The notes under the pieces were generated by a model. That model did not search any database, had not been told where the DNA came from, and saw only the letters and a list, made by a program, of their open reading frames with translations. DNA of 64,000 bases, taken from positions 596,001 to 660,000 of the forward strand of contig NC_019903.1 of the NCBI RefSeq assembly GCF_000243135.2, given 5' to 3'. Positions 2,454 to 52,458 of this stretch are shown one piece after another. The number at the start of each line of letters is the position of its first letter. The first letter of the stretch is position 1. Source of the stretch: Desulfitobacterium dichloroeliminans LMG P-21439. GTDB lineage: Bacteria > Bacillota > Desulfitobacteriia > Desulfitobacteriales > Desulfitobacteriaceae. The position numbers were made by a program, and so were the translations under genes.

Positions 2454-3602
2454 ATGAGTAGACGAACGCTGAAATTTGGGGTGCTCGCCGTAAGTGCCAT
2501 GGGCATGGGCGCCATGGTCACAAATCCAGTCTTGGCTGATATTATGAAGGCTTTCCCTGATGTCGATCCCACAACGATTATGTTGATTTCTGGTCTGCCC
2601 TCCTTGTTTGTTGTTTTTTTCGCACCGGTCTACGGAAAATTAACTCAATACTTACCTAAGAAAACTCTTCTCGCCATTGCGACACTGTGCTTTGCCGTGG
2701 GTGGAATCATGCCGGCTTTCCTGAGTAATTTTACAATTATATTAGCCATGCGTTGTTTACTGGGAGTGGGTCTTGGGTTTCTCTTACCAATGGCAGCAGA
2801 TTTAATCTCAGACTTTTTTGATGGTCATGAAAGAGAGACTATGATGGGCTTTCAATCCGCCTTTACCAGCATCGGCGGTATTATGTATCAATTGGCGGGA
2901 GGTTTTCTCGGTTCCTATGGCTGGAATTATGCTTTCTACGCCTATATTATCGGTATTATCATCTTCTTTGCCGTTCATCTGACTTTGCCGGAACCCCAGC
3001 GCAAAGTCATCCCCCAAGGTGAAAAGATGAAAATGCCCAGTCGAGTGTACAGCAGCTTTTTTTCCTTGTTCGTCTTTCAAATTATTTTGTTTATCCTCAT
3101 GAACAACGCGGCAGTCATGCTTGATGGAGAAAAGATGGGCGATGCGGCATCCATTGGCGTAGCCTTGACCCTGATGACAGTTGGTGGTTTAATCGGTGGT
3201 TTTTTTGCAGGGAAAGTCATGCGCATTTTAAAAGAATACACCTTTCCTATACTATACCTCATCTGCGGAGTTGGTTTTGGCATTGGCTATACCTCCTACA
3301 CACTTCTCCAGTTTTTTGTCGCAACCACGATCATCGGTTTATCTATGGGTGTCTTTGTACCTTCTTGTTGGGTCAAGCTTTCGGTATCGGTCCCACCACC
3401 CTTAGTTGCCTTGGCTATATCCATTGGCGTTAGCGCCATGAACATCGGCGGCTTTTTTCAGCCCTACATCTATGCTGGTATCAGTAAGTTGTTCGGCCTC
3501 CAAATCGGCAGAGATTCCTTCTTAGTAGCAGTAGTCGCCAGTATATTGATGGCTGTTTTCGTTTTCATTGATAGTAAAACCTCGAGAAAAGCTAGCGCTT
3601 AA
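2454..3602 (+). CDS. MFS transporter
   Basis: The start is the ATG at 2454 (MSRRTLKFG), because an ideal GGAGGAGG site lies 6 nt before it. An upstream in-frame ATG at 2439 overlaps that site. The 382-residue product has about 12 hydrophobic helices, a central break near residue 190, and a loop after helix 2 (YGKLTQYLPKKTLLA) resembling the MFS motif A region. A 'PMAADLISDFFDGHERETMMGFQSAF' segment follows helix 4. It would be a proton-coupled transporter in the cytoplasmic membrane. The substrate cannot be read from sequence. The gene stands alone between a divergent cupin gene and a convergent membrane protein gene. Confidence 0.88.
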   Translation: MSRRTLKFGVLAVSAMGMGAMVTNPVLADIMKAFPDVDPTTIMLISGLPSLFVVFFAPVYGKLTQYLPKKTLLAIATLCFAVGGIMPAFLSNFTIILAMRCLLGVGLGFLLPMAADLISDFFDGHERETMMGFQSAFTSIGGIMYQLAGGFLGSYGWNYAFYAYIIGIIIFFAVHLTLPEPQRKVIPQGEKMKMPSRVYSSFFSLFVFQIILFILMNNAAVMLDGEKMGDAASIGVALTLMTVGGLIGGFFAGKVMRILKEYTFPILYLICGVGFGIGYTSYTLLQFFVATTIIGLSMGVFVPSCWVKLSVSVPPPLVALAISIGVSAMNIGGFFQPYIYAGISKLFGLQIGRDSFLVAVVASILMAVFVFIDSKTSRKASA

Positions 3603-3667
3603 CAAGGAAAGGCATAAAAAGACCACAAACAAGCGGAGCTCCTTTTATGACAAGGAGTTAGCAATAA

Positions 3668-3702
3668 AAAAAGGGCTGCCCACTTCGTGGCAGCTCTTTT
3701 GG
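3668..3702 (-). terminator. Terminator of the zinc-ribbon membrane protein gene
   Basis: A GCTGCC/GGCAGC stem with a TTCG-type loop, flanked by A and T runs, lies just beyond the stop at 3715. Its A/T symmetry means it may also stop the convergent MFS transcript. Confidence 0.7.
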
Positions 3703-3714
3703 TGTCCCTGTTCA

Positions 3715-4959
3715 CTATAACTTTGTTCCACATTGAGAACAATAGCTGGCCCCTTCGCGTGTTTTTTGACCACAGGTAGGACAGAAGTTCGCTGAATCTC
3801 TTGATGCGACCTGTGAAGTCGTAGTGGAATGAGAAGGGTTGTATGGGGAATCATAAGGAGATTCGGGTGTGCTATATGGGTCCTTGGGAGGGATATAAGA
3901 ATTACTTGGCGGTGGATAGGAAGCTGCGGGTGCCTCAGGTCGGCTGGGCGGTGTGTCTGGTGCAGCATTTGCAGGTGACTCAGTAGGTTTATTCTCTTCA
4001 TAAGCTGGATGGTACCGTGAATCAGGCGAAACAGGAAAAGGAGAAGTTTCCGGTCTCAGTACTGGCGCAGTTGGATTGTGGTATAGATTACCGATAGGCT
4101 TTGCTTTTTCCTCTTCTTCAAGGGTAAATACCCAAACGATGGGGAGGATCGTCAAAAAGGGAGTAACAATGAAGGAGAGAATCAGCCCGATCTCTGGAGA
4201 GCTTTTGTCAAACAAGCTAATCAAAAGTTGAAGACCCATTATGGTTAAAAAGGCTCCCCACAAGGGTCCCATATGGCGACGGTAGAAGCTCCAGCTTTCT
4301 CTAAAGGCTCGCCCAAAGGGAAGGTGAAGCTGGGTTAACATTCTATAAGGTGCAGCTAGGACCCAAGGAGCCAGAAAGACTCCTAGAGCAACAAAAACAA
4401 AAACATAGACGATCCCGAACAAAGCCATGGCATACTCGGACCGAAAATTTATAGCCATCACTATTCCTGAACTAATCACAATAAACGATACAATCGTGAG
4501 AATGACATACCAACCAAAGAGGCGAGCAAAGCCCTGAAGCCGGATATTCCGAAATTGGGCCTTTTCAACATAGGCTTTTTTTGTTAGATGAAAGATTCCG
4601 ACTTGGAATATGGAAGACATAAGCAACCCTAACACAATAAGCAGAGCGATCCCCAGCAATAACATAGGGGCCATATCCATATAGGGTTCCAATTCCTCAA
4701 AGTAGGGGGTTAATTCCCCGAAAGAGCCATAACCAAAGTTTGTCATAGAGCCATTGTCGGGTGGAACTGGGATGGAGGGGTCGGAAGGGAAGGATGAACT
4801 GAATTCACCTGAACGGAGGATAGGCATGACTGCTGCCACTACCGATATGGCAGCTATAAGGATGGTGGTGATCACAAAAATAATGTAGAAGCCAAAAAGA
4901 GGGAGAGTCATTCTCTTAAAGGTTTCGATGGTTTTTTTCATACGGGCAGTCCAAGTCAA
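3715..4959 (-). CDS. Polytopic membrane protein with C-terminal zinc ribbon
   Basis: The 414-residue product starts at TTG 4959 behind GGTGGGG. It has a hydrophobic helix at residues 18-42, a Pro/Ser-rich extracytoplasmic loop (about 55-80), then five or so further membrane helices up to about residue 275. A long Pro/Ser/Tyr-rich linker follows. The last 25 residues form a CPTC-x(11)-CSQC zinc ribbon. The helical part resembles DUF975-like or glycerophosphoryl-diesterase membrane domains only loosely. Zinc-ribbon-tailed membrane proteins of this type are common in Firmicutes and have no fixed function. The gene is monocistronic. Confidence 0.7.
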   Translation of the reverse strand: MTWTARMKKTIETFKRMTLPLFGFYIIFVITTILIAAISVVAAVMPILRSGEFSSSFPSDPSIPVPPDNGSMTNFGYGSFGELTPYFEELEPYMDMAPMLLLGIALLIVLGLLMSSIFQVGIFHLTKKAYVEKAQFRNIRLQGFARLFGWYVILTIVSFIVISSGIVMAINFRSEYAMALFGIVYVFVFVALGVFLAPWVLAAPYRMLTQLHLPFGRAFRESWSFYRRHMGPLWGAFLTIMGLQLLISLFDKSSPEIGLILSFIVTPFLTILPIVWVFTLEEEEKAKPIGNLYHNPTAPVLRPETSPFPVSPDSRYHPAYEENKPTESPANAAPDTPPSRPEAPAASYPPPSNSYIPPKDPYSTPESPYDSPYNPSHSTTTSQVASRDSANFCPTCGQKTREGASYCSQCGTKL

Positions 4960-5105
4960 GTATAAACCCCACCTTTCAGGTACCTTTTAAGTACTTATAA
5001 TTATTTTACATGGGGGATGACATTTTGAATAGTACATTATAGAAACTTTACGTTACCTTATGTGATTCAGAAGGTGCTTATACTATAATTAAAGAGCTGG
5101 GAATA

Positions 5106-36030: not shown

Positions 36031-36130
36031 AAAATATTATTCGAAGATTTCGACACTCACCCTTTGGGATAAGAAGGAATTTTATAAGTAATCTAGAATA
36101 TATCTTTTTATAACCTATAACATAGTATAA

Positions 36131-36275
36131 AAGTATCATGGAGATACTTCTTGTTCTGTAAGAACAACTAGTTTTATAAGATAACTAGGTTTATTAGTAG
36201 TGATAAATTCAAACGATGGATATGACCATGAAGGTCTTGCCTGAGGAAATGGGCGGATCTTCATGGTTTTATTTT
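36131..36275 (+). promoter_or_regulatory. Structured leader with attenuator before cbiM (riboswitch candidate)
   Basis: Three back-to-back perfect hairpins (36131-36149, AAGTATC/GATACTT; 36151-36167, TTGTTCT/AGAACAA; 36168-36188, CTAGTT/AACTAG) are followed by a terminator-like stem ACCATGAAG/CTTCATGGT (36225-36233, 36259-36267) with TTTATTTTT. The terminator ends about 20 bp before the cbiM start. No cobalamin-box sequence was seen, nor the NiCo consensus as I recall it. Its position before a Ni/Co importer suggests metal control. Confidence 0.6.
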
Positions 36276-36295
36276 TGGAGAGGGAGATGATTAGT

Positions 36296-37348
36296 ATGCA
36301 TATGGCTGATGCCTTGATTTCACCGGCAGTAGGGGTAACCATGTGGGCAGCGACCGCAGGTGTCGCCGCATACTCCATAAAGAAAATCCAAGACGATATG
36401 GATGAAAAGAAGATTCCTTTGATGGGGGTCATGGGGGCATTTGTTTTTGCTGCTCAGATGATTAACTTTACGATACCCGGAACAGGATCTAGCGGACATC
36501 TCGGTGGGGGGTTGTTACTGGCGATTCTTCTCGGGCCTTATGCTGGATTTTTGACAATGGCCGCGATTCTGACTATACAGGCCTTATTCTTTGCCGATGG
36601 AGGGCTTTTGGCATTAGGGGCGAATATATTTAATCTTGGCTTTTTTACATGCTTTGTAGTCTACCCTCTTATCTATAAACCGCTGATGGCCAAAGGATAT
36701 AATTCGAAACGGATATTAGGTGCTGCTCTCTTGGCAGCAGTTATTGGTCTTCAGTTGGGTTCCTTGAGCGTTGTCCTTGAGACTCTTTTTTCAGGGAAGA
36801 CCGAATTGCCTTTTAACACTTTCCTCCTACTTATGCAGCCCATCCACTTGGCAATTGGGATAGTTGAGGGTCTGGTGATAGCTGCAGTGGTTACTTTTGT
36901 CTGGAAGGAACGTCCAGAGATACTTGAGAATGCAAGATGGGGAGAAAGGCTAGGTAGCATCTCCTTGAAACGGGTCCTTACGGTTCTTGTCTTGGCTGCA
37001 GTCCTTACCGGTGGAGTGTTCTCTTGGTTTGCTTCGTCTAATCCTGATGGACTGGAATGGTCTATGCATAAAGCGGCAGGAGTGGAAGAGCTGGAGGCAA
37101 CGGGGGGAATTCATCAAATGCTTGCTGATCTTCAAAGCAATATTGCTTTTTTACCGGATTATGGTTTCAGAGCTTCAGAGGAAGAAAGTGCACCAGCTAC
37201 TGCCGAAGGCAGCGAAGTATGGCCTGCAGTCGATAGCGGCACGACCACAGCGGGAATCGTGGGAGCGGGCTTGACCCTTGTTTTGGCGGGTATAATCGGC
37301 TTTGTTGTAACATTACTAAAAAAAAGAAATTCTAGCCCAGCGAAATAA
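36296..37348 (+). CDS. cbiM: Cobalt/nickel ECF transporter substrate-binding subunit CbiM, with PDGLE domain
   Basis: This is the integral S component that binds Co2+ or Ni2+. ATG 36296 is required because the family begins Met-His ('MHMADALISP'), where His2 is a metal ligand. GGAGAGGGAG precedes it. The product is about 350 residues. Seven or so helices fill residues 1-240, with 'FTIPGTGSSGHLGGGLL' carrying another conserved His. 'SNPDGLEWSMHKAAG' begins the CbiN-like PDGLE domain, followed by a final membrane helix. The cbiM-N fusion explains the absence of a separate cbiN. Metal specificity, Co or Ni, cannot be told. Confidence 0.92.
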   Translation: MHMADALISPAVGVTMWAATAGVAAYSIKKIQDDMDEKKIPLMGVMGAFVFAAQMINFTIPGTGSSGHLGGGLLLAILLGPYAGFLTMAAILTIQALFFADGGLLALGANIFNLGFFTCFVVYPLIYKPLMAKGYNSKRILGAALLAAVIGLQLGSLSVVLETLFSGKTELPFNTFLLLMQPIHLAIGIVEGLVIAAVVTFVWKERPEILENARWGERLGSISLKRVLTVLVLAAVLTGGVFSWFASSNPDGLEWSMHKAAGVEELEATGGIHQMLADLQSNIAFLPDYGFRASEEESAPATAEGSEVWPAVDSGTTTAGIVGAGLTLVLAGIIGFVVTLLKKRNSSPAK

Positions 37349-37412
37349 TATCAACTCAATTGAGCAGTAGAAGATCGGAAATTACCCCTAGTCTTTGTGA
37401 GGTGTGGAGATT

Positions 37413-38210
37413 ATGGCGAATATGATGGATACAGTCTTTGATATGCGGCTTTTGGATGATTTATCCGGCAAGGAAACGTTGATCCATAGAGTTCATCCTT
37501 TAGCAAAGCTTCTCACAACACTTCTCTTTATCGTTGTGGTTGTATCCTACGACCGCTATGAAATCTTTGGCCTTCTGCCCTTGGTTTTCTTTCCGGTGCT
37601 GGTAATGTCCTTGGGGGAGCTGCCTCTTGGCCCCATCATGAAGCGCATGCTCTTGGCGGCCCCCTTCGCTTTGGGAATAGGAGTACTCAACCCCTTTTTT
37701 GATCATCAGGTCTTTATGGTTGGTGGAATCACCCTGTCTAGAGGCTGGATCACCTTTTTATCAATTCTTATTAAATCTATCCTGACGGTAAGTGCAGCCC
37801 TTTTGCTGATAGCCACTACGGGGATGGATAAATTAGGATCTGCTTTGCGGTTGCTCAAGATCCCCAAATTGTTTGTCCTTCAGCTCCTTCTAACCTATCG
37901 CTATATCTCTGTCTTACTGGAAGAGGTTTCGACGATTTGGAGAGCTTATTCCTTACGGTCCCCTCAGCAGAAGGGGATTAATCACAAGGTTTGGGGGCCC
38001 TTAATCGGACAACTGTTACTACGGACCTATGAGAGGGCCCAGAGGGTCTATCAATCTATGTGTTTAAGAGGATTTACAGGGGAATATAATACGGGAGAGC
38101 AGCAGAAGCCTACGGGTAAGGATTTCATTTATGCGTTGAGCTGGGGTGCCTTTTTTATTCTTGCTAAAATGATCAATATTCCTCTGCTGATAGGTAACTT
38201 ATTTTATTAA
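37413..38210 (+). CDS. cbiQ: ECF transporter transmembrane subunit CbiQ
   Basis: The 265-residue T component couples the ATPase to CbiM. ATG 37413 (MANMMDTVFDMR) follows GAGGTGTGGAG. About five helices are seen, with 'KSILTVSAALLLIATTGMDKLGSALRLLKIPKLFV' and 'LLEEVSTIWRAYSLRSPQQKG' near residue 170 giving the ATPase-contact A-R-x motifs of CbiQ/EcfT, including 'YQSMCLRGF' near 215. It lies 64 bp after cbiM and 114 bp before cbiO, in one operon. Confidence 0.92.
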   Translation: MANMMDTVFDMRLLDDLSGKETLIHRVHPLAKLLTTLLFIVVVVSYDRYEIFGLLPLVFFPVLVMSLGELPLGPIMKRMLLAAPFALGIGVLNPFFDHQVFMVGGITLSRGWITFLSILIKSILTVSAALLLIATTGMDKLGSALRLLKIPKLFVLQLLLTYRYISVLLEEVSTIWRAYSLRSPQQKGINHKVWGPLIGQLLLRTYERAQRVYQSMCLRGFTGEYNTGEQQKPTGKDFIYALSWGAFFILAKMINIPLLIGNLFY

Positions 38211-38324
38211 TATGAGTGCGCACAGGTAGCACAGGATACATCGCTTCGCTTAGTATGACAGAGGTCCCAACTATTTGGCATACTGAAGGAAGACTGACGG
38301 ATGGATATGTACAGGAGGAACCTT

Positions 38325-39089
38325 ATGAGTCACCATATGACAGAAGTTAGAGATCTACAATTTATATACCCTGATGGGCATAAGGCGATCAAGCGGATGA
38401 CCTTCACCATTCATCACGGGGAATCAGTAGGGATTATCGGAGCTAACGGTGCGGGGAAATCTACTTTACTTATGCTACTCATGGGAGTTTTGTTCCCTAG
38501 CCAAGGGGAAGTTCGGGTTGGGGAGGTTCTTGTCACAAAAAAAACCCTGCCCATAGTCCGCCAACGGATGGGGATGGTTTTTCAAAACCCTGATGATCAG
38601 CTGTTTATGAATACAGTCTATGAGGATGTGGCCTTTGGACCTCGCAATTATAAGCTGGATGAACAAGAAGTAGAGAAACGGGTCCTTCAAGCTTTAGAAA
38701 TGGTCGGAATCTCTCATTTAAAGGATCGAGCTCCCTATAAATTATCCGGCGGCGAAAAACGGGCAGCTGCTATTGCCGCCGTGCTTTCTATGCAACCGGA
38801 TATCTTAATTATGGATGAGCCCTCTTCAGCCCTAGATCCCAAATCCAGACGTAGGCTAATGAAGTTACTTCAGGGTTTTGAACATACCAAGATTATTACA
38901 AGTCACGATATCGACATGGTTTATGAATTATGTGACAGAATTATCGTCATTCATCAGGGTCAAGTTGCCGCTGACGGCCCGACCGCGGAAATCTTAACCA
39001 ATGCGGAACTCCTGGATGCCTGCGGCTTAGAGATGCCCCTGTCTCTGCAGGGGTGCCCGGTCTGTGGATGTGGAAAAGGAAAGCAATAA
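38325..39089 (+). CDS. cbiO: ECF transporter ATPase CbiO, with C-terminal Cys tail
   Basis: ATG 38325 (MSHHMTEVRDLQF) is chosen for its AGGAGG site 6 nt upstream. The product is 254 residues. Walker A is 'GANGAGKST', the Q loop 'MVFQNPDDQLF', the signature 'LSGGEKRAAAIAAVLS' and Walker B 'ILIMDEPSSALD', with the His switch in 'ITSHDIDMV'. It powers Co/Ni import with CbiM and CbiQ. The last residues, 'LQGCPVCGCGKGKQ', form a C-x2-C-x-C tail that is unusual for an ECF ATPase and could bind metal. A terminator follows at once. Confidence 0.94.
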   Translation: MSHHMTEVRDLQFIYPDGHKAIKRMTFTIHHGESVGIIGANGAGKSTLLMLLMGVLFPSQGEVRVGEVLVTKKTLPIVRQRMGMVFQNPDDQLFMNTVYEDVAFGPRNYKLDEQEVEKRVLQALEMVGISHLKDRAPYKLSGGEKRAAAIAAVLSMQPDILIMDEPSSALDPKSRRRLMKLLQGFEHTKIITSHDIDMVYELCDRIIVIHQGQVAADGPTAEILTNAELLDACGLEMPLSLQGCPVCGCGKGKQ

Positions 39090-52019: not shown

Positions 52020-52248
52020 TATAATGTTCATGTACCTCTAACTTTATCTTTGTTGCAAGAACAATAGGTAAAGCTAAGGAGCTCAATAGGCTTGAGAGCG
52101 TACATGAACACCTTTAAGGGGAGGGATGCCATGTTCATAGCGAAGCGCGAGGTTCCAATATCTGCGAGCTTCGAGCTTAAGTCTAATCTTACTGAGCGTT
52201 AGCGAAGTATTGAATCCAGTGTGGTTTGAAAATCTGGCAAGTTAATAC
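52020..52248 (+). promoter_or_regulatory. Promoter and structured 5' leader of the glmS ribozyme transcript
   Basis: TATAAT (52020-52025) precedes a long leader. Its first bases form an 11-bp perfect stem, TGTTCATGTAC (52026-52036 approx.) with GTACATGAACA (about 52099-52109), enclosing smaller hairpins. A short coding frame follows at 52131-52202, then the ribozyme. Together the 220-nt leader is far longer than the ribozyme needs. Confidence 0.6.
52131..52202 (+). CDS. Leader peptide upstream of the glmS ribozyme, 23 residues
   Basis: ATG 52131 follows GGGGAGG by 7 nt, a stronger site than that of glmS itself. The frame encodes MFIAKREVPISASFELKSN then LTER and stops with TAG, 47 bp before the ribozyme cleavage site. 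No similarity is recognised. It may be translated to protect or fold the leader. It could also be fortuitous. Confidence 0.5.
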   Translation: MFIAKREVPISASFELKSNLTER

Positions 52249-52400
52249 AGCGCCTGGACCGTGAGCGAACATCAAGTATTGAGCATGGTTGACGAGGAAG
52301 AGGGTTATCGAAAGATTCGGCGGATGCCCTCTCGGTGTCTTGGCACCGCAGGCTTATTACAAAACCGCGAAGTGATTTGCGGAACAAAGAGTAAGCATCA
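52249..52400 (+). ncRNA. glmS ribozyme (glucosamine-6-phosphate-activated)
   Basis: The self-cleaving RNA acts in the glmS mRNA leader. Cleavage is expected before GCGCC at 52250. Conserved core pieces follow in order: 'TTGACGAGGAAGAGGG', 'TTATCGAAAGATTCGGCGGA', 'TGCCCTC', then P3/P4 helices to about 52400. The core wording (GAGG, TTATCGAAA-x-TTCGGCGGATGCC) is diagnostic. GlcN-6-P triggers cleavage and RNase J decay, lowering GlmS. An extra hairpin lies at 52403-52440, and a terminator at 52459-52485. Confidence 0.93.
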
Positions 52401-52458
52401 AGGAACGGGAGCAGTCTACCCTTTTGGGTTTTCCCTGTTCATATCGCCAGAATAGTTC

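Follow-up and report, generated by a model that had tools for sequence, protein, structure and literature searches.

In Desulfitobacterium dichloroeliminans the nickel/cobalt importer genes cbiMQO are preceded by a leader that probably works as a transcription attenuator in the response to scarce nickel (or cobalt), under the control of an RNA-binding factor. Two mutually exclusive folds compete within this leader, an intrinsic terminator and a small hairpin, P2, that reuses the terminator's 5' arm, while a further hairpin with the same loop pattern, P1, lies upstream. On the comparative sequence evidence set out below, the functional unit is this combination of P1 with the P2 and terminator folds, not the stack of hairpins of which P1 is the first member.

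The window analysed here is a 64,000 nucleotide stretch corresponding to bases 596001–660000 of the 3.62 Mb single-contig genome, and all features of the locus are on its forward strand. The leader (36031–36295) adjoins the 5' end of cbiM (36296–37348), which encodes the importer substrate component with a fused PDGLE domain (Pfam CbiM, 1.9e-59; PDGLE, 2e-31), and whose ATG at 36296 was chosen by homology, the relatives beginning MHMADALIS. It is followed by cbiQ, the T component (37404–38210; Pfam CbiQ, TIGR02454 above cut-off), and cbiO, the ATPase (38301–39089; Pfam ABC_tran). Sequence and position ahead of the ATG identify GGAGAGGGAG (36277–36286) as the cbiM ribosome-binding site. The hexamer TAGAAT at 36094–36099 is likely the −10 box of the leader transcript, the same hexamer being found in the 170 nt preceding 56 of 112 element copies (15.7 expected from shuffles); a sigma-70 consensus scan gave no match. 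The window also contains a glmS ribozyme-riboswitch (52238–52406, forward strand, E 3.9e-24), an ordinary known element.

A preliminary description of this DNA reported three perfect hairpins separated by 0–1 nt, and all are present between 36131 and 36188. Hairpin 1, here P1 (AAGTATC-ATGGA-GATACTT, or AAGUAUC-AUGGA-GAUACUU as RNA; 36131–36149), has seven perfect pairs and belongs to an enriched class of upstream hairpins; hairpin 2 (TTGTTC-TGTAA-GAACAA, 36151–36167) starts 1 nt beyond it, and hairpin 3 (CTAGTT-N9-AACTAG, 36168–36188) follows with no spacing, both lying in the stretch that links P1 to P2. None of 200 shuffled versions folds as stably as the 265-nt leader when treated as single-stranded RNA (z −4.3); the stability of hairpins 1–3 taken alone is ordinary (z −1.2, with 23 of 200 shuffles equally good), and no counterpart of hairpin 2 or hairpin 3 was seen in those leaders of relatives that were inspected. 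We therefore rejected the three hairpins as a single structured sensor. The earlier suggestion of an RNA sensor survives in part: a structured leader with an attenuator and a link to nickel or cobalt stands, while the stacked hairpins as its sensing part do not, since just hairpin 1 recurs.

The terminator-like stem with a T-rich tail ahead of cbiM, also pointed out in the preliminary description, begins 35 nt past hairpin 3. The stem spans 36224–36268, its 3' arm occupying 36255–36268, and the tail, TTTTATTTTT (36267–36276), runs directly up to the ribosome-binding site. This segment folds at −26.5 kcal/mol (z −5.5) and beats all shuffles, although a simple terminator scan misses it, probably on account of the long, interrupted shape of the stem. 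As the hairpins alone are ordinary and the scan passes over the stem, the evidence for hairpin 1 and for the terminator comes from comparison with relatives. The 5' arm of the stem is also the sequence of P2 (GACC-AUGAA-GGUC, 36224–36236), the proposed antiterminator and recognition site. By itself P2 is weak: its window copy folds at −3.7 kcal/mol, far short of the terminator's −26.5, so P2 would need stabilising in order to block termination.

When the leader DNA was searched against 61 relatives, the best matches fell at 36222–36291 rather than on the three hairpins, and were partly located before other metal genes. A covariance model, R1, was built from an alignment of 24 copies. The copies, read in cbiM leaders and at nearby loci, share the core R-A-CC-A-Y-G-R-A-GG-U, a short G+C stem, the complement of the core and a T run. 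With R1 the window copy scores E 1.1e-9, and another copy of this genome, directly ahead of cooT, scores E 3.5e-5. The model detects the element in 40 of the 61 relatives, among whose named records are Desulfosporosinus species, at up to 20 copies per genome. At class level, 35 of 62 genomes have it; a sample of 299 genomes from the phylum gave 23 carriers, which belong to 12 families. The counts of pairs, loops and target genes below refer to 114 distinct copies. In one record (L156:5462–5587, reverse strand) two complete copies stand in tandem ahead of a CobN-like gene.

Downstream of single-hairpin copies in Desulfosporosinus-like genomes there is also a conserved segment, some 250 nt long, that appears to be non-coding. 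It begins AAGGAGGTG, contains a hairpin with an invariant TGATCTGACCGTCA, and occurs at L113:7610–7866 (−), L009:585–845 (−), L015:3236–3480, L018:640–882 (−), L010:3014–3270, L017:755–987 (−), L110:15477–15735, L112:5012–5268 (−), L112:3785–4034 (−) and L006:846–1086 (−). It is followed by cooT at some loci and by no recognised gene at others, and had no Rfam match in those loci scanned; it is possibly an unannotated metal-regulated small RNA.

Both folds have left compensatory changes in the relatives' leaders, and neither of the results that the preliminary description had named as refuting its reading came about, there being also no hit to a known class. In the terminator helix 98% of cells are paired and four pairs have changed on both sides; for the alternative helix of P2 the figures are 87% and three pairs, counts which, being drawn from related sequences, are support and not proof. 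R1 was built without the P2 fold. Column 5 shifts together with both of its partners (G-C-C in 48 copies, A-U-U in 33), the expected trace of competing folds. P2 overlaps the terminator in every copy. The two conserved folds exclude each other and one of them is an intrinsic terminator, as befits an attenuator.

The loop of P2 is more constrained than its place in the terminator requires. Its A1, G3 and A5, and the G that follows, are identical in 114 of 114 aligned copies, while three of their four partners in the terminator are freer, with G-U wobbles common (2.0 bits for the loop bases against 1.67, 1.07 and 0.95 at three partner positions). Because the partners vary, pairing in the terminator does not account for the invariant loop; recognition of the P2 hairpin would. 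Five-base AYGRA loops are found in 112 of the 114 copies, position 4 being A in 27. A leader peptide was considered and rejected, since the AUG of the loop is ACG in eight copies and AAG in one, and the frames beyond it differ among copies. For the record, the window has a 24-codon frame, MDMTMKVLPEEMGGSSWFYFWRGR (36216–36290, forward strand), that overlaps the terminator and stops just ahead of cbiM; no obvious ribosome-binding site precedes its start codon, and the frame itself shows no conservation.

The shared loop pattern identifies P1 as an upstream copy of P2, the hairpin contained in the 5' arm of the terminator. Upstream of P2, the strand that carries it has 31 hairpins with N-N-G-R-A loops and perfect stems, against 2.5 expected, and the reverse strand has 2, which is the chance level; with one bulge allowed, P1 is found in 61 of the 114 copies (7.9 expected), the search rule leaving about half of them without one. 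Across species the arms vary freely and the loop pattern is constant: GGUAUC-AAGAA-GAUACC in relatives L032 and L164, CGUCUC-CGGAA-GAGACG in L160 and UUUGAGU-AAGAA-ACUCAAA in L163. The linker between P1 and P2 measures 74 nt in the window and 2–3 nt in many Desulfosporosinus copies, and over all copies the P1 loop lies 14–119 nt from P2.

The first recognisable gene downstream belongs to a metal-linked set in 95 of the 114 copies, a count in which some references were taken from the same loci, with 19 copies not assigned. CbiM, of two types, leads with 24 copies, followed by CooT with 20, cooT often standing 12–40 nt past the terminator. Other targets comprise SAM methyltransferases, FecB-type binding proteins, FmdE, Nik/Opp-type ABC transporters, TsaA/TrmO-like proteins, DUF3842, an RcnR/CsoR-like repressor, CobN-like proteins and one ZnuA-like protein, of which the methyltransferases, FmdE, FecB-type and ZnuA-like proteins are not clearly nickel genes. 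A NiCoT-type permease lies downstream of the copy in L043, and two copies are upstream of [FeFe]-hydrogenase genes, at distances of about 400 and 916 nt. CooT serves CO dehydrogenase (PMC6006190), and the placing of the element ahead of nickel-free [FeFe]-hydrogenase genes fits nickel sparing; from these two kinds of target we favour nickel over cobalt as the metal. That expression would be on when the metal is scarce is likewise suggested by the targets, namely importers, CooT, the RcnR-like gene and the [FeFe]-hydrogenase genes. At one hydrogenase locus (L168, minus strand; element 4992–5048, hydrogenase gene 2760–4076) an MvhD-like protein seems to be encoded in the gap between the two, with read-through of an in-frame TGA that may be a selenocysteine codon.

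These features can be joined in a putative mechanism. RNA polymerase would make P1 first and then P2, and an active regulator, presumably in its metal-starved form, would recognise the hairpins with N-N-G-R-A loops and keep P2 closed. The complementary 3' arm would then be left unpaired and transcription would continue into cbiMQO. In metal-replete cells the regulator would be inactive, the P2 sequence would pair with the 3' arm, and the resulting terminator would end transcription just ahead of the cbiM ribosome-binding site. More tentatively, the element may define a nickel-starvation RNA regulon spread over many families, with a small nickel-binding protein, CooT or another, acting as metal-responsive antiterminator on N-N-G-R-A hairpins that precede importers, nickel chaperones and nickel-free hydrogenase genes. 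To our knowledge, the regulators of nickel uptake, NikR and RcnR, all act on DNA. If the proposal is correct, a compact element common to importers, CooT and nickel-linked genes would make up a large regulon in many families of anaerobes, would offer clues to the functions of DUF3842, CooT, FmdE-like and CGGC proteins, and would open the way to testing, in sulfate reducers and their anaerobic relatives, whether nickel controls CO dehydrogenase and hydrogenase metabolism.

Which molecule would read the hairpins can be approached through gene co-occurrence. CooT as the regulator would be one particular version of the favoured mechanism, and is a candidate only, one we regard as doubtful. The protein binds one Ni per dimer with a Kd of 9 nM and its role has been given as unclear (PMC6006190); its gene is among the commonest targets, at a short distance from the terminator as in autoregulation, and is carried by 22 of the 23 element-bearing phylum genomes against 70 of the 276 others. 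DUF3842 also occurs in 22 of the 23, and the enrichments (p = 1.4e-11 for CooT, 1.3e-7 for DUF3842 and 1.8e-5 for ANTAR) are uncorrected for shared ancestry. Against CooT, many genomes carry it without the element, the co-occurrence may merely reflect its being a target, and a structure search with its fold returned just CooT and weak RimM-like matches, with no direct sign of RNA binding. Genome G076 (99% complete) has the element and neither CooT nor DUF3842, for which reason both were rejected as a universal partner. An ANTAR-domain regulator, to which the element would be an antiterminator with an unusual five-base loop, is an unlikely reader in our judgement, even though the architecture is the same, with two small hairpins whose loops begin with A and contain G, the second over a terminator, and ANTAR genes are present in 21 of the 23 genomes. 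In known ANTAR sites the loop is six bases long, the first base being A and the fourth G, and the eut sites have linkers of 5–12 nt and need that length (PMC3369931); here essentially all 114 copies have a five-base loop, which in 27 of them carries A as its fourth base, and the 74-nt linker of the window is far from the eut range, though the 2–3 nt of many Desulfosporosinus copies is not long. Moreover, element-bearing G229 (99% complete) and G150 have no ANTAR gene, and the sole ANTAR gene of D. dichloroeliminans sits after glnA, the leader of which has its own six-base-loop site. The hairpin of that leader (L117:1150–1765), AGAAC-AAAGGC-GTTCT over a terminator, is likely a canonical ANTAR site, and the receiver domain of the protein seems to be without the phosphorylated Asp.

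The finding that no protein is common to all element-bearing genomes tested would also suit a protein-free riboswitch, in which Ni2+, Co2+ or a cobamide would bind directly to the small hairpins and so shift the balance between P2 and the terminator, and the invariant loop purines could conceivably coordinate metal, by analogy with the NiCo aptamer. Such a sensor is possible and not favoured, and we give it little credence: the conserved core is a single short hairpin of about a dozen nucleotides, known metal aptamers being far larger, the second hairpin is missing in half of the copies, and no Rfam class matched. Least probable is that the hairpins serve as DNA operators for a NikR- or RcnR-type metal repressor, with an unregulated terminator after them. 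Hairpin 1 is indeed a perfect dyad near the promoter, and the preliminary description had offered a NikR-type operator as an alternative, but this is disfavoured by P1 arms that vary around a kept loop and by the strand-specificity of the hairpins, and a plain terminator would neither hold an invariant loop on one arm only nor recur specifically ahead of nickel genes. Relatives without the element do have a sequence like a repressor operator, ATCCCCC..GG, ahead of cbiM. It lies some 50–150 nt upstream in L007, L020, L022, L024, L025, L027, L028 and L030 (the L025 version being TATCCCTATCCGGGGGATA) and resembles a DNA operator of CsoR/RcnR type. The favoured reading is an RNA attenuator read by a trans-acting factor, probably a protein.

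The element can be compared with several characterised RNA systems, none of which has its exact form. At gathering score no Rfam 15 family, TwoAYGGAY and guanidine-II included, coincided with the element, whether in the window or in relatives, and matches of the leader at E up to 10 were at chance level; neither the NiCo (RF02683) nor the cobalamin (RF00174) model matched the leader at either threshold, NiCo being absent from the relatives' copies as well, in keeping with the preliminary description, which had recognised neither riboswitch. Nor did we find the element described in the open-licence literature. The NiCo (czcD) riboswitch is alike in controlling nickel/cobalt homeostasis genes by termination at the RNA level. 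It is reported to switch efflux on with metal (PMC7689651), whereas the genes of the element serve mainly uptake and nickel use, and the element lacks its four-way-junction aptamer. Cobalamin riboswitches also precede cobalt importer genes, and one lies about 1 kb upstream of an element copy (L157), but the element has none of their long conserved structure. P1 and many P2 copies have the loop AUGGA, which is similar to the A-N-GGA loops of CsrA/RsmE hairpins; a CsrA/RsmE site was rejected, as the GGA core is absent from 27 of the 114 P2 loops (AUGAA, ACGAA, AAGAA), that of the window among them. The likeness extends furthest to the ANTAR sites of EutV, NasR and AmiR (PMC3369931, PMC8934654), where a pair of small hairpins, of which the second shares sequence with the 5' arm of an intrinsic terminator, combines conserved loop bases with variable stems and recurs in a multi-leader regulon per genome. 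The element differs from these sites in its five-base N-N-G-R-A loops in place of six-base A1/G4 loops, in a linker that ranges from 2–3 to about 80 nt, in a P1 that is missing from around half of the copies, in its occurrence also in genomes without ANTAR, and in targets that are related to nickel.
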